Shown here: piece after piece, positions 15,046-19,730 of the stretch
Position numbering within the stretch: position 1 is the stretch's first letter
Layout of the letters: the number at the start of each line of letters is the position of its first letter
DNA from: Singulisphaera sp. GP187
Lineage (GTDB): Bacteria; Planctomycetota; Phycisphaerae; Phycisphaerales; SM1A02
Direction: 5' to 3'
Assembly: GCA_945862215.1 (NCBI GenBank)
Contig: CAMAXY010000003.1
Coordinates: 62,001-126,000, forward strand
DNA: 64,000 nt
Made by a program: the position numbers and the translations under genes
Notes under the pieces: generated by a model
Told to the model about the DNA's origin: nothing
Database searches by the model: none
Seen by the model: only the letters and a program-made list of their open reading frames with translations

Positions 15046-17349
15046 TTATTTCTGTGGAGTCAGAATCAACTTCACGACCTCGGATGTTGGTAGACCAAGT
15101 GCGCCAAAGGCCTGCCCCGCAGCATTTGCCGTTGCACCTGAGGAATTTAGAATCAGAGTACGAAGCGATTCGATCTGATTCGGCTGGAGCAAATTGCCAA
15201 ACTTTCTTGCGCTTGTTGCCACGCTCATCAAGAGCATCGTCTGTTCATCGCTTGTGGCTGACAATGCAGAATCCATAAGAGCACGCTGGGCTGTATCAGT
15301 CGGCAGAAGTGCCAGAACACCAGCAACGGATGACTTGACCGTCCCACTTGAAGTTCCCAGTGCACCAATTAAATCTGCCTGCGCATCTCGAACATCAAAG
15401 ATTGCATTTGCTGATTCCGCGATCAATCGAAGCACTGACAGCGACTCATTCATGTACTGCGCTGATTCCTCAGGCGACATTGCGATTCCACCTGCAGCGC
15501 CCACTGCTGACTCGATCGCAGCGAGGAACTGCGCATCAGTTGCGCTTGCCAAGAAGACCGACACACGGGAATCATTTTCGAATTCCAAAGAAAAGACGGA
15601 AGCGTCATTCCCGTTGGCGATGACAACGATTGGCGATGTAGCTGCCGATCGTGAGAGTCGAATTGTTCGGATTTCCTCGGTGGCGGAAGCATGCGATCCT
15701 TGAATAACGATGAGGTCGAGCGTCTGCCCCGAGGACAACTTCCCTTCAATCTCGCTGATCGATGCCCCAGTTGTGACTGTATTTGCGCCAGCGCTGCTGA
15801 TGCGTGTTGCGAGGGATTGACGATCTTCTTCAACGGAGGCGATGACAGCGGCGGTCATTCCGCCCGATTGAAGCATTGAAGCAAGAACAGGAACGACGAG
15901 AGATTGTTGCTGAAACGACTCGGCTGGAAGTGATTTCGCCAAGACCACTGCAGCCTCGAAGCGAACTCGACGATCTGCAAAGAGTAAGCATTCAATGATC
16001 GGCGATCGTCCACTCATTGGTGTCACCAATGTTGTTGCGCCACTATTCGCTCCAAGAACGCGGATGCACTCACGAGCAAGCATGACATCGCTGGCATCAA
16101 TGGCAAATCCCAGAGCCATTTGTGTGATGCGCGCACCACTCGCTGTTGCAAAAAAGTCAGCGCTGTACCGACTTGTGAGGATTGAAGACTCCGCAGATTC
16201 AGACGAACTGTCGATGTTGAGTAAACGCGTGAAGACTGAACGCCGCAGATCGGCCGCAACATAAATCGCCAGCGCTAATTCGGAAGTCGGATCGCACCGC
16301 AGAGCTTCTCTCGCAGTTTGAATTGCCATCGTCTCGCAGTAAAGGGTGGTCGGAATCGCTATTCCTGTCAGTCCATTTTGATTGTCGTAACTCCACACCA
16401 CATTGTTCGGATCTCCTGCATAAGGAATGAGCGAAGGGGTTTGATCGAAAAATCGTCTCGACAAGGCTGTGTACTGGCTTGCAGCATCCTGTGACGTTCC
16501 CCCGAGTCGCGCATATGCACGAAGCGCAGCAGTACGAACATCTGCAGTTGTTGCAGAATCTGTCGCGAGACCAAATAGATAGGCCTGACTGCTGGGATAA
16601 CCAATTTCTCCAAGCACTTCACAAACTTTTCGCTGAGTATCTGGATCTACATGTGCAAGGGCAGCACAAAGTGGCGCGACAGCAAGCCGCTTCATTTCAA
16701 CGAGAACAGAGCGAGCTGAATTTGCGAGCTTCAGATTTTGGACATCTCCGAGTGCCTTAAGAAGAGAAGGAACTGCGAATGCACCTGCAGCCAAAAGTCT
16801 TTGACGAGAAACCATTTCTTGCCGCATGGATCCACCAAGACCTTGGACAGCCTCCTCGATGCGCAATGCATTTCGACTCGTTGCGCGAGTTCCTGCAAAG
16901 TATCGAGATTCCAGTTCAGCCACTAATTCAGCCGATCCGTCCAATCCTCGACCTCGGATCAACGATCTTTCAAATTTTTCGCGAATCCCTTTCTCGTCAA
17001 CCAATTGAGCGATCTGCTCATCCGTTATCTCAGAATCAAAGAGAGCTTGGATCGAAGCCTTCGTCATATCTGCCTTGCCAATCAAGATGAAATGCATCGC
17101 CATGTCGAGATCATGTGACTGCGCAGCCGTCGCAACGAATTGTTCTGCAGGATCGGTCGCCGCAGGTGCATTCGCACTCGCTGGTTCGGCGGATGGTTCG
17201 GCGGATGGTTCGGCGGATGGTTCTTCGACAGGTGGATCTATGGGTTCATCACCCTGCATCATGGCGTTTGATTGCGAAGATCCGCTAATCAAACTGACGG
17301 CAAGAACTGCAGAAAGAATCCTGAAGGAACGAAGTATTTGGTCAAACAA
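15046..17349 (-). CDS. Secreted HEAT-like repeat protein with a receiver-like segment
   Basis: Large exported protein (767 aa from this start). The signal segment is RSFRILSAVLAVSLISGSS, followed by a Glu/Pro/Ser/Ala linker with three EPSA units. Residues ~200-430 are HEAT-like helices (LLKALGDVQNLKLANSARSV, CEVLGEIGYPSS). Around residues 530-650 the pattern AAVIASVEEDRQSLATRI...LDLIVIQG...SPIVVIANG resembles the beta-alpha order of a response-regulator receiver, but without a clear phospho-Asp context. The TTG at 17349 is chosen because AGGAG lies 10 nt upstream and the signal peptide follows; the frame stays open to 17445. The role is unknown. Confidence 0.62.
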   Translation of the reverse strand: MFDQILRSFRILSAVLAVSLISGSSQSNAMMQGDEPIDPPVEEPSAEPSAEPSAEPASANAPAATDPAEQFVATAAQSHDLDMAMHFILIGKADMTKASIQALFDSEITDEQIAQLVDEKGIREKFERSLIRGRGLDGSAELVAELESRYFAGTRATSRNALRIEEAVQGLGGSMRQEMVSRQRLLAAGAFAVPSLLKALGDVQNLKLANSARSVLVEMKRLAVAPLCAALAHVDPDTQRKVCEVLGEIGYPSSQAYLFGLATDSATTADVRTAALRAYARLGGTSQDAASQYTALSRRFFDQTPSLIPYAGDPNNVVWSYDNQNGLTGIAIPTTLYCETMAIQTAREALRCDPTSELALAIYVAADLRRSVFTRLLNIDSSSESAESSILTSRYSADFFATASGARITQMALGFAIDASDVMLARECIRVLGANSGATTLVTPMSGRSPIIECLLFADRRVRFEAAVVLAKSLPAESFQQQSLVVPVLASMLQSGGMTAAVIASVEEDRQSLATRISSAGANTVTTGASISEIEGKLSSGQTLDLIVIQGSHASATEEIRTIRLSRSAATSPIVVIANGNDASVFSLEFENDSRVSVFLASATDAQFLAAIESAVGAAGGIAMSPEESAQYMNESLSVLRLIAESANAIFDVRDAQADLIGALGTSSGTVKSSVAGVLALLPTDTAQRALMDSALSATSDEQTMLLMSVATSARKFGNLLQPNQIESLRTLILNSSGATANAAGQAFGALGLPTSEVVKLILTPQK
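17183..17218. repeat. 12-bp tandem repeat encoding the EPSA linker
   Basis: Three identical copies of GGTTCGGCGGAT, in frame inside the secreted protein gene, encode Ser-Ala-Glu-Pro units of a flexible linker. Confidence 0.9.
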
Positions 17350-17514
17350 TTGAATTCTGCTCCTAGCGGACTTGATTAAAACAAGCCTTTGGCTCGATCG
17401 AACATGAGAATGGGTAAAAGTAGCGCATTCACTCACTCCGTGCAACGATCATGGGCAATGAATTTGGTATCCTCCAATGCGTGATTGATCCTCGGCACTC
17501 GTGAGCCGAGGCGT

Positions 17515-17700
17515 AGCGTGGATGGCTGGCGCCACTCATTCTGCGAGGGAAGGCGGTGAAAATCCGCTATGGACGCGCCGCCGTAACGGGTGGAGGATTT
17601 TCCTCCCCAGCCCGAACCAGAGTCGCCACTGGAAATTGCATTTGCAATATCTGGGAAGGCAGGTTCGAGTGCCCGAAGTCGGAAGACCTGCATTCACTTT
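17515..17700 (+). promoter_or_regulatory. Cobalamin (B12) riboswitch
   Basis: Conserved cobalamin-aptamer blocks occur in order. GAGGGAAGGCGGTGAAAATC with the pairing CGCCGCC lies at about 17545-17582, GCCACTGG at about 17625, TGGGAAGGC at about 17653, and the B12 box AGTCGGAAGACCTGC at about 17677-17691. A hairpin (CTCGGC/GCCGAG) lies just upstream at 17491-17510. Downstream, GTCCC/GGGAC at about 17705-17725 may be the expression platform. It stands 60 bp before the ATG of a surface protein gene, so B12 probably represses the 17760-19730 genes. Confidence 0.9.
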
Positions 17701-17759
17701 GCGCTGTCCCCTCGCGACTAGGGACCACGGTGCGTCACGCCGGCTTCAAACAATTCAAC

Positions 17760-18680
17760 ATGTCATTCATAGAGTGTTTCTTGTTTCGTATCGCCATTGC
17801 GATATTTGTCGCATTGGGTTTAATCGCATTGCCAACAAGCGCAAGCGACTTTGCAAACAACGTCCTCTCGTATGTCGCAGGCTCAAATCCTGCAAACGGT
17901 TTTACAAATCCTCTTGTTGCTCTTGGGCCTCCCGAACGATTTACTGGTGAGGGAATCGCTCCAGGTGCTGTGACTCCGTTTCATCCGTGCTTCCGTACAA
18001 ATGAAATTGTTTCCATTGGTGCAGGTGGACAACTGACTCTGGGTTTCGAACCCCCACTACGCGATCAAGCGAACAATCCATTTGGGATTGACTTCATCGT
18101 GTTTGGAAATTCTTTTTTCACCGACGCCGCATATCCAAGCGGAGTCGTTGGCGCACTTGCCGCTGACGGTGGAACGATTCAAGTCTCCGCAGATGGAATC
18201 ACGTGGATTTCGATTCCAAATGTTTTTGCGGACGGACTCTGCCCCACGATGGGGTGGGTCGATGGTGGTGCCTATGCAACAACAAACGGCGTGATTGCGA
18301 CGGACCCAAATACTCCCGTGGATCCCACGTGGACTGCAGCGTCGCTCTCAGGAAAAACATACGACGAACTTGTGGACATCTATGACGGATCCGCGGGAGG
18401 CGCAGGAGTTGATCTTGCAAGTGTCGGATTGACCCAAGCGATTGCGGTTCGGATCATTGTTCCAACTGGGATTCATCCCAATGTGGAAATCGATGCCGTT
18501 GCGCGAGTTCATGCAAGTGGAAATCCTGCAGATATCGATGGGAATGGGCTTGTAAATGGCGCGGATCTTGCAGCAGTTCTTACTGCATTTGGTACGGCGT
18601 CCTCGGCGGCAGATATTGATCACAGCGGACTTGTCGATGGCTTGGATCTTGCTGCAATCTTGGCTGGATGGAGCGCCTGA
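17760..18680 (+). CDS. Exported surface protein with dockerin-like C-terminus, B12-riboswitch controlled
   Basis: Predicted 306-aa exported protein: signal peptide (FRIAIAIFVALGLIALPTSA), a ~210-residue beta-rich domain with VALGPPERFTGEG, GQLTLGFEPPL and FGIDFIVFGNSFF, and then two Asp/Asn-rich dockerin-like repeats (DIDGNGLVNGADLAAVL, DIDHSGLVDGLDLAAIL) of the planctomycete type. Similar FGN-type cell-surface domains are found near B12 riboswitches and B12 transport genes in other phyla (recalled, not checked), so a role in cobalamin capture is plausible. The ATG at 17760 is used because the longer frame would lie inside the riboswitch. It is followed with no gap by a pseudopilin gene. Confidence 0.78.
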   Translation: MSFIECFLFRIAIAIFVALGLIALPTSASDFANNVLSYVAGSNPANGFTNPLVALGPPERFTGEGIAPGAVTPFHPCFRTNEIVSIGAGGQLTLGFEPPLRDQANNPFGIDFIVFGNSFFTDAAYPSGVVGALAADGGTIQVSADGITWISIPNVFADGLCPTMGWVDGGAYATTNGVIATDPNTPVDPTWTAASLSGKTYDELVDIYDGSAGGAGVDLASVGLTQAIAVRIIVPTGIHPNVEIDAVARVHASGNPADIDGNGLVNGADLAAVLTAFGTASSAADIDHSGLVDGLDLAAILAGWSA

Positions 18681-19484
18681 ATGTCCCGTCGAGCGTTCAC
18701 ACTTATTGAAATGTTGGTCACGATGGGCATCATCACACTGCTTGCTTCTCTTGCGATGCCTGGATTGAAGAGCGTGCGCGAGAGCAGTCGAAGTAGCGAA
18801 TGCGCGACAAGACTTCGACAACTTTCAATTGCCGCGCAGTCATACTCAAATGTTTTTCGAGGAGTCTTTCCGCCAGCGATACTTTTTGAAATGACTTCAT
18901 CGGGTGTTCGAACCGTTGCGTGGGACTTCGTGCAAGAGCCAAATGGCCAAGTGCGTCCTGGACCATTATGGTCTTTCACCGACCATCCATTTCAAGTACA
19001 GCAATGTCCATCATTCATCGGCTCGAGCACCTTCGGCGCGGATCCATACACGGGCTTCAATTACAACACTACATTCATCGGCGCAGAAGGATCGTGGCCA
19101 ATCATGGGAGACGATGGCCAAGTATTAAGCGGTTGGAAAAACGCGCGTCGCGGTTTGACGGTCAGCCAACACAACCGTCCCGCTGAAACTGCCCTCTTTG
19201 GCGATGGCGGATGGCAAGGCGGCGCGAATAAATTTATGCGTGCGCCGAGTGCGTCAGTCGAAATGGACCTGGGAATTGTCTACTCGGGGGCGCAAGCATT
19301 TCGTCATCAAGGATGCACAAATGTTGCATGGTTGGATGGCCATGTTCGCGGCGTATGCCAACAGTGCAAGGGCATGCATGCGGTGGAGAATTCTGCAGTT
19401 TCATTTCAATATCTCCAGTCGCCACTCGCATGGCCTGCAAATGGATTTCTCAGCGACGACGATTCTGCCTACGACCCGAGATAG
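18681..19484 (+). CDS. Pseudopilin with H-X9-DG C-terminus
   Basis: The 267-aa protein starts RRAFTLIEMLVTMGIITLL, a type III prepilin signal cleaved before Phe, with Glu at +5. The C-terminal part has HQGCTNVAWLDGH, the H-X9-DG motif characteristic of planctomycete pseudopilins. In that phylum such proteins are numerous and are thought to form trans-envelope fibres for uptake. It abuts the upstream surface-protein stop and is probably in the same B12-regulated operon. That regulation is unusual for a pseudopilin. Confidence 0.85.
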   Translation: MSRRAFTLIEMLVTMGIITLLASLAMPGLKSVRESSRSSECATRLRQLSIAAQSYSNVFRGVFPPAILFEMTSSGVRTVAWDFVQEPNGQVRPGPLWSFTDHPFQVQQCPSFIGSSTFGADPYTGFNYNTTFIGAEGSWPIMGDDGQVLSGWKNARRGLTVSQHNRPAETALFGDGGWQGGANKFMRAPSASVEMDLGIVYSGAQAFRHQGCTNVAWLDGHVRGVCQQCKGMHAVENSAVSFQYLQSPLAWPANGFLSDDDSAYDPR

Positions 19485-19508
19485 TCACATTGAAATGCAC
19501 AGAATCTT

Positions 19509-19730
19509 ATGACGCCCATCAACATTGATCGATGTGTTTGCTATGACACCACCTTCGCCGCAATTGACGCTTGGGCACGTGCGCAGTCAAGAGTCGTCAC
19601 GAGAGAAGATGTCCGAAAAGAATTTGGTTGCGGCGGAGGCTGCAAACTTTGTCAGCCTTACATCGCGTGCACACTTCGGACAGGACAGGTTGTCTTTCAC
19701 GAAATCCGATTCGAAGAAGAGATGGACTGA
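19509..19730 (+). CDS. Small BFD-like [2Fe-2S] protein
   Basis: Protein of 73 aa with the cysteine pattern of bacterioferritin-associated-ferredoxin-type domains: C-V-C near residues 9-11 and C-GGG-C-KLC near 41-48, each suited to hold part of a 2Fe-2S cluster. The helix between them (AAIDAWARAQSRVVTREDVRK, spanning residues 17-37) matches the BFD fold. It lies 24 bp after the pseudopilin gene, at the end of the riboswitch-led group. Its partner is unknown; a redox step on cobalamin is only a guess. Confidence 0.72.
   Translation: MTPINIDRCVCYDTTFAAIDAWARAQSRVVTREDVRKEFGCGGGCKLCQPYIACTLRTGQVVFHEIRFEEEMD

Follow-up and report, generated by a model that had tools for sequence, protein, structure and literature searches.

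Which protein carries vitamin B12 across the outer membrane of a planctomycete is the question raised by a locus in which a pilin-like gene lies behind a cobalamin riboswitch. In well-studied Gram-negative bacteria, B12 passes the outer membrane via BtuB and TonB. The locus described here belongs to a freshwater planctomycete (genome G000; 2.79 Mb, 93.5% complete) and lies within a window of 64,000 nucleotides, the whole stretch of DNA that was analyzed. Three same-strand genes are found 3' of a cobalamin aptamer, and we consider it probable that the window holds a B12-acquisition, or scavenging, operon in which a pseudopilin fills the BtuB slot at the outer membrane. The features are as follows.

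17505-17709, + strand: cobalamin riboswitch aptamer (RF00174), complete; cmscan, 56.7 bits, model positions 1-189
17760-18680, + strand: gene 1 (P0003), exported BtuH-type protein with a dockerin-like tail, 306 aa; PDB-sequence profile match, AlphaFold model, riboswitch-linked conservation
17832-18512, + strand: BtuH-type domain of gene 1, residues 25-251; range aligned to 7BIZ and 8BLW
18516-18677, + strand: dockerin-like C-terminal tail of gene 1, residues 253-306; structural match to the type II dockerin 2Y3N (Z 9.0), NF041540 match below threshold
18681-19484, + strand: gene 2 (P0001), DUF1559 pseudopilin of a B12-riboswitch-linked subfamily, 267 aa; N_methyl and DUF1559 matches above cutoff
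19509-19730, + strand: gene 3 (P0002), BFD-like 2Fe-2S protein, 73 aa; Fer2_BFD match (E 0.00035) below cutoff, invariant cysteines

A preliminary description of this DNA had proposed a complete B12 aptamer followed by a dockerin-tailed exported protein, a pseudopilin, and a BFD-like protein, and the aptamer, the gene order, and the spacing all hold. The aptamer exceeds the RF00174 gathering score of 31.5 bits in a covariance search, and its AGUCGGAAGACCUGC box is intact. No structure suggestive of an expression platform was detected in the 100 nt downstream of the aptamer, which fold no better than shuffled sequences. Gene 1 starts 50 bp after the aptamer ends; a longer open reading frame with a start at 17556, which falls within the aptamer, was set aside. 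Gene 2 begins on the base right after the stop of gene 1 (a gap of 0), gene 3 follows after 24 bp, and 18 bp past the gene 3 stop lies the end of a convergent mutL-type gene. The neighbor upstream of the aptamer is divergently oriented; near its N terminus, its product contains an AEPS repeat, which is encoded by a short tandem repeat at 17184-17240 (ggttcggcggat units). All three genes behind the aptamer are probably under B12-dependent control.

Cobalamin riboswitches occur in 58 of 61 relatives, mostly one per genome. Across the family and part of the order, a BtuH-type gene lies directly 3' of the riboswitch, and in nearly all sampled loci of relatives the pseudopilin gene follows it directly or at a short distance. 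Joint conservation of the riboswitch with genes 1 and 2 across family and order shows that their grouping is not a matter of chance. The survey of genomes thus bore out the association of the first two genes, while gene 3 is missing from most loci.

The protein encoded by gene 1 has a signal-type helix at its N terminus and a GC-type dockerin-like tail at its C terminus, the latter matched below threshold by Pfam and NCBIfam models. Apart from that tail and a weak match to an LIC_13355 lipoprotein, searches against Pfam and NCBIfam returned nothing, and plasmid records held no match. By those collections the protein seemed novel; its relation to BtuH surfaced with a profile search of PDB sequences. 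A profile built from 43 homologues, drawn from behind riboswitches in related genomes, matched residues 391 to 523 of 8BLW chain B (E 2.1e-9), a stretch of the BtuH domain of BtuG1. With a more distant planctomycete member as a single query, 8BLW was found at E 3.8e-20 and BtuH2 (7BIZ) at E 2e-12. In Bacteroides thetaiotaomicron, the BtuH domain is fused to BtuG1 (PMC10404256), and this fused domain binds cobalamin on its own (PMC12751083).

Structure prediction agreed with the profile search. The two best structural matches to the AlphaFold model of gene 1 (pLDDT 92) were B12-bound BtuH2 (7BIZ; Z 11.1 over 141 residues) and 8BLW (Z 10.7). The best unrelated structure scored 9.7, so we read the fold as support for the sequence match, not as standing by itself. 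To compare contact residues, chain positions in 7BIZ were converted to residue numbers with an offset of 100, set by four agreeing residue names. Asn399 of BtuH2 touches the phosphate of B12 (PMC8941943), and its equivalent, Asn117 of gene 1, is invariant in 43/43 homologues. It is alone in this among the contact residues that could be placed: the equivalent of Gln333 is kept in 7 of the 43 and is absent from gene 1, and Trp577 appears unconserved. Gene 1 is a divergent BtuH domain protein, homologous to the Bacteroides B12-binding surface domain, and it presumably binds cobamides in this species as well.

Compared with the BtuH and BtuG1 (BtuGH) lipoproteins of B. thetaiotaomicron (7BIZ, 8BLW), gene 1 shares a homologous domain, export, and a place in a cobalamin-riboswitch locus. 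It differs in ending in a dockerin-like tail where those proteins have a lipid anchor and PKD or propeller domains, in the change of some B12 contact residues, and in a locus that lacks btuB and has a pseudopilin alongside. The structural match to a type II dockerin, together with the commonness of similar tails in this genome, makes it likely that the tail holds gene 1 at the cell surface. The preliminary description had called the group an undescribed capture system; B12 capture by a surface binder together with a subunit of pilin type is well supported, but the binder, being homologous to BtuH, is not of an undescribed kind. The same description saw no known B12 transporter or B12-dependent enzyme, which is true of the neighborhood but not of the wider picture, as a B12-binding protein the size of MetH is encoded in the genome and gene 1 itself belongs to a known B12-binding family. 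The presence of B12-dependent enzymes in the genome speaks for a B12-acquisition operon.

BtuH-type domains also lie behind riboswitches in two more distant genomes without the pilin subfamily (G070, locus L184; G222, locus L193), and the leading gene of L193 encodes another DUF1559 pilin. Some loci in distant families of the order hold an extra exported gene between the riboswitch and the BtuH-type gene; in L107, L113, L114, and L115, this first gene encodes a protein of about 360 to 380 aa that is possibly a propeller. A search of PDB sequences with this extra family (A5) in the distant loci gave no match, and its assignment as a BtuG propeller is unsupported.

Gene 2 shares the prepilin N terminus and the domain match of the DUF1559 (H-X9-DG) pseudopilins, scoring 25.6 bits against N_methyl (PF07963; cutoff, 21.2; E 8e-6) and 29.5 bits against DUF1559 (PF07596; cutoff, 23.3; E 1e-6). 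It differs from that large group in belonging to one distinct subfamily that is tied to B12 riboswitches, of which it is the top-scoring member in its genome. A genome scan with the single gene 2 protein found six relatives, mostly unclassified or metagenome-assembled Planctomycetota, one being a Phycisphaerales bacterium from deep Lake Baikal.

Because DUF1559 pilins are abundant in these genomes, one might suppose that such a gene had come to lie behind the riboswitch by accident, a supposition helped by the absence of gene 3 from most loci. We therefore weigh it against a held-out search. A profile of the pilin (A3), trained on loci from the order only, was run against 294 genomes of the phylum with acceptance at E 1e-35 or better. 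It matched 35 genomes outside the training set, 30 of which contained a cobalamin riboswitch, and in 24 of these 30 the top pilin match lay on the same strand, 136 to 2841 bp downstream of the riboswitch, where a rough estimate of chance gives about 0.03. In a 25th genome (G334), the second pilin match was the riboswitch-linked one. The linked pilin is the best-scoring member of the subfamily, far above the remaining pilins. For the pilin, accident is close to refuted, and as an account of the whole group we rate it as very improbable; for gene 3, it may still apply.

Among the held-out genomes, linkage was missing in the genus g87 and in a handful of assemblies that were fragmented or had no riboswitch. 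Searches for a riboswitch in G023, in G045, at the g87 loci checked, and on contig C160 of G060 found none, even with lax filters. In g87 (L158 in G288 and L159 in G106), riboswitches precede a different DUF1559 pilin, and the member of the B12-linked subfamily lies elsewhere, with no detectable riboswitch. Across the phylum, the subfamily of gene 2 is tied to B12 riboswitches, in the position that the outer-membrane B12 transporter has in other bacteria, which suggests a B12 uptake route that has gone undescribed.

The company that this pilin keeps in other loci bears on what it might do. Four loci (L141, L144, L149, and L151) run from riboswitch to a transcobalamin-beta-like gene, a BtuH-type gene, and the pilin. 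In L139, genes of BtuF, BtuC, and BtuD type lie between riboswitch and pilin, while in L142 the riboswitch is followed by one further gene, a BtuH-type gene, the pilin, and genes for a BtuF-type protein and an ABC ATPase. In L145, the pilin precedes a small open reading frame, a BtuF-type gene, and two genes that by appearance resemble an ATPase and a permease. In L131, the order is riboswitch, pilin, small open reading frame, BluB, CobQ, and CobA adenosyltransferase. Matches for BluB, CobQ, and CobA were above the NCBIfam and Pfam cutoffs; the ABC components matched BtuF, BtuC, and corrinoid ATPase models below equivalog cutoffs. In many genomes, the pilin is itself the first gene behind the riboswitch, with no BtuH- or transcobalamin-type gene detected nearby.

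These arrangements weigh on the main rival to our reading, in which the pseudopilin would be a subunit of a secretion pseudopilus that exports the BtuH-type binder, and B12 would enter by an unlinked porin or an unrecognized receptor. Pseudopilins do occur in type II secretion systems, genes 1 and 2 abut, and the genome has seven matches to T2SSE-family (pilus-type) ATPases. Loci in which the pilin comes first and a binder gene was not detected weaken the proposal, however, and the pairing of some pilins with BtuFCD also speaks against it. We regard a role in secretion as unlikely, though it is the best of the alternatives.

The pilin and TonB-dependent receptors were also compared across riboswitch loci. 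Of 40 such loci sampled in genomes that lack the pilin subfamily, 20 contained a TonB-dependent receptor, mostly as the first gene. At the level of loci, pilin and receptor are mutually exclusive: in three sets totaling 142 riboswitch or pilin loci, the receptor occurred in 23, the pilin in 83, and both in none. We present this as a pattern and attach no p-value, since pilin status partly guided the choice of the sets, and the species are related to one another. In the order, one relative alone (G048) has its riboswitch ahead of a TonB receptor, and it lacks a clear pilin-subfamily member. In the window, the TonB receptor profile gave no match at the riboswitch locus; the genome as a whole has a single Plug match, on another contig, in an open reading frame of about 1,020 aa, and near-complete relatives, including G037, G042, G046, and G058, have zero Plug domain matches. 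A FecCD-type permease is present in most relatives and was not found in the incomplete genome G000. B12-riboswitch control is common to these loci and to the BtuB-TonB and BtuFCD system, and some pilin loci of other planctomycetes include BtuF-, BtuC-, or BtuD-type genes; what the planctomycete pilin loci lack is the TonB-dependent receptor, in whose stead they have the pseudopilin.

A second locus in the same genome, outside the window, also involves B12 carriers. A cobalamin riboswitch match at C11:8302-8427 (L002:1501-1626) scores 23.3 bits, below threshold, and precedes a gene for an exported 191-aa protein (L002:1685-2260). The weak match is credible because the same pair recurs in seven other genomes. 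Modeled, the 191-aa protein resembles the beta-domains of human intrinsic factor, haptocorrin, and transcobalamin (Z 12.0 to 13.7), with the next fold at 6.5. In contrast to those carriers, it is bacterial, consists of the beta-domain without an alpha-domain, and often has a PEP-CTERM-like end. An assignment to DUF4465 (BtuJ) was dropped, as there was no Pfam match and the model is that of a transcobalamin/intrinsic-factor beta-domain. Each of the two riboswitch loci in this genome therefore codes for an exported protein that either is related to known B12 binders or shares their fold.

This bears on a further possibility, that these genes form a surface module which is regulated by B12 but has another purpose, such as adhesion to B12-producing algae or particles, and that its BtuH-like domain has lost B12 binding. 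The two placeable BtuH2 contact residues that are not conserved in the family are in keeping with such a role, and structure comparison indicates that a related fold is also used for carbohydrate binding. Against it stand the invariant equivalent of Asn399, the occurrence of the same pilin with BtuFCD or with BluB, CobQ, and CobA, and the different protein with a B12-carrier fold at the second riboswitch. We judge it improbable, less so than accident and more so than secretion.

Under the scavenging model that we favor, low cobalamin would relieve the riboswitch and allow expression of the three genes. Gene 1 would be exported, held by its tail at the surface, and bind cobamides via its BtuH domain. 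Gene 2 would be assembled by machinery like that of type IV pili or type II secretion into a short fiber or pseudopilus, a plausible role for a protein of its kind, and could present or draw B12, free or BtuH bound, across the outer membrane, taking the role of the TonB-dependent receptor BtuB. It is the genomic position of the pilin that points to passage by this route. Several observations run against the model: among the BtuH2 contact residues that could be placed, Asn399 alone is invariant, G000 yielded no FecCD permease, the g87 members of the pilin subfamily have no riboswitch beside them, and no expression-platform structure was seen. A broader version, in which Planctomycetota import B12 by a pilus-type machine instead of a TonB receptor, with BtuH- or transcobalamin-type surface proteins loading B12 onto a dedicated DUF1559 pseudopilin and assembly and retraction of the latter delivering the vitamin to the periplasm, is tentative, and we would sooner doubt than assert it.

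Dextran-binding pili-like fibers have been observed in planctomycetes, as has uptake into the periplasm, with the route left open (PMC5394234). Those fibers suggest a link between pili and uptake, and gene 2 may or may not be one of their components. A pseudopilin occupies the place of BtuB in many planctomycete genomes, among them some in which no TonB plug domain could be detected. The open question of how planctomycetes import large molecules (PMC5394234) thereby becomes testable through a single gene and a single vitamin. A literature search of open-licence papers found none linking pilins to cobalamin riboswitches or B12 uptake in Planctomycetota. The gene 1 binder is a further member of a known family; the import mechanism would be new if shown. 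The BtuH family members described in PMC8941943 come from Bacteroidetes and Firmicutes, a range that is now extended, and the second locus points to bacterial proteins with the fold of a human B12-carrier beta-domain under B12 riboswitches.

The third gene is the least constant part of the operon. Its Fer2_BFD match in Pfam reaches 21.3 bits, under the 26-bit cutoff, and the cysteines of its CxC...CxxC pattern (C9, C11, C45, and C48) are invariant in 16 homologues. This distinct BFD-like subfamily occurs in 23 of the 61 relatives and adjoins the pilin in 21 of the 23; one of the two other copies sits at a contig break. Being missing from most loci, gene 3 is accessory. As a small putative 2Fe-2S protein, it may act in cytosolic cobalamin reduction or recycling, and its role as a B12 reductant is a guess.

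Yet another set of parts accompanies the pilin in a different family of the phylum. In L132, L134, L140, and L143, a small exported open reading frame comes after the riboswitch and pilin, along with genes for a BtuF-like protein and a DUF6580 membrane protein, and most of the four also have one for a PF01902 (diphthamide synthase-like) ATPase; the profile check covers the genes of L132. This arrangement is a B12 locus with uncharacterized parts.
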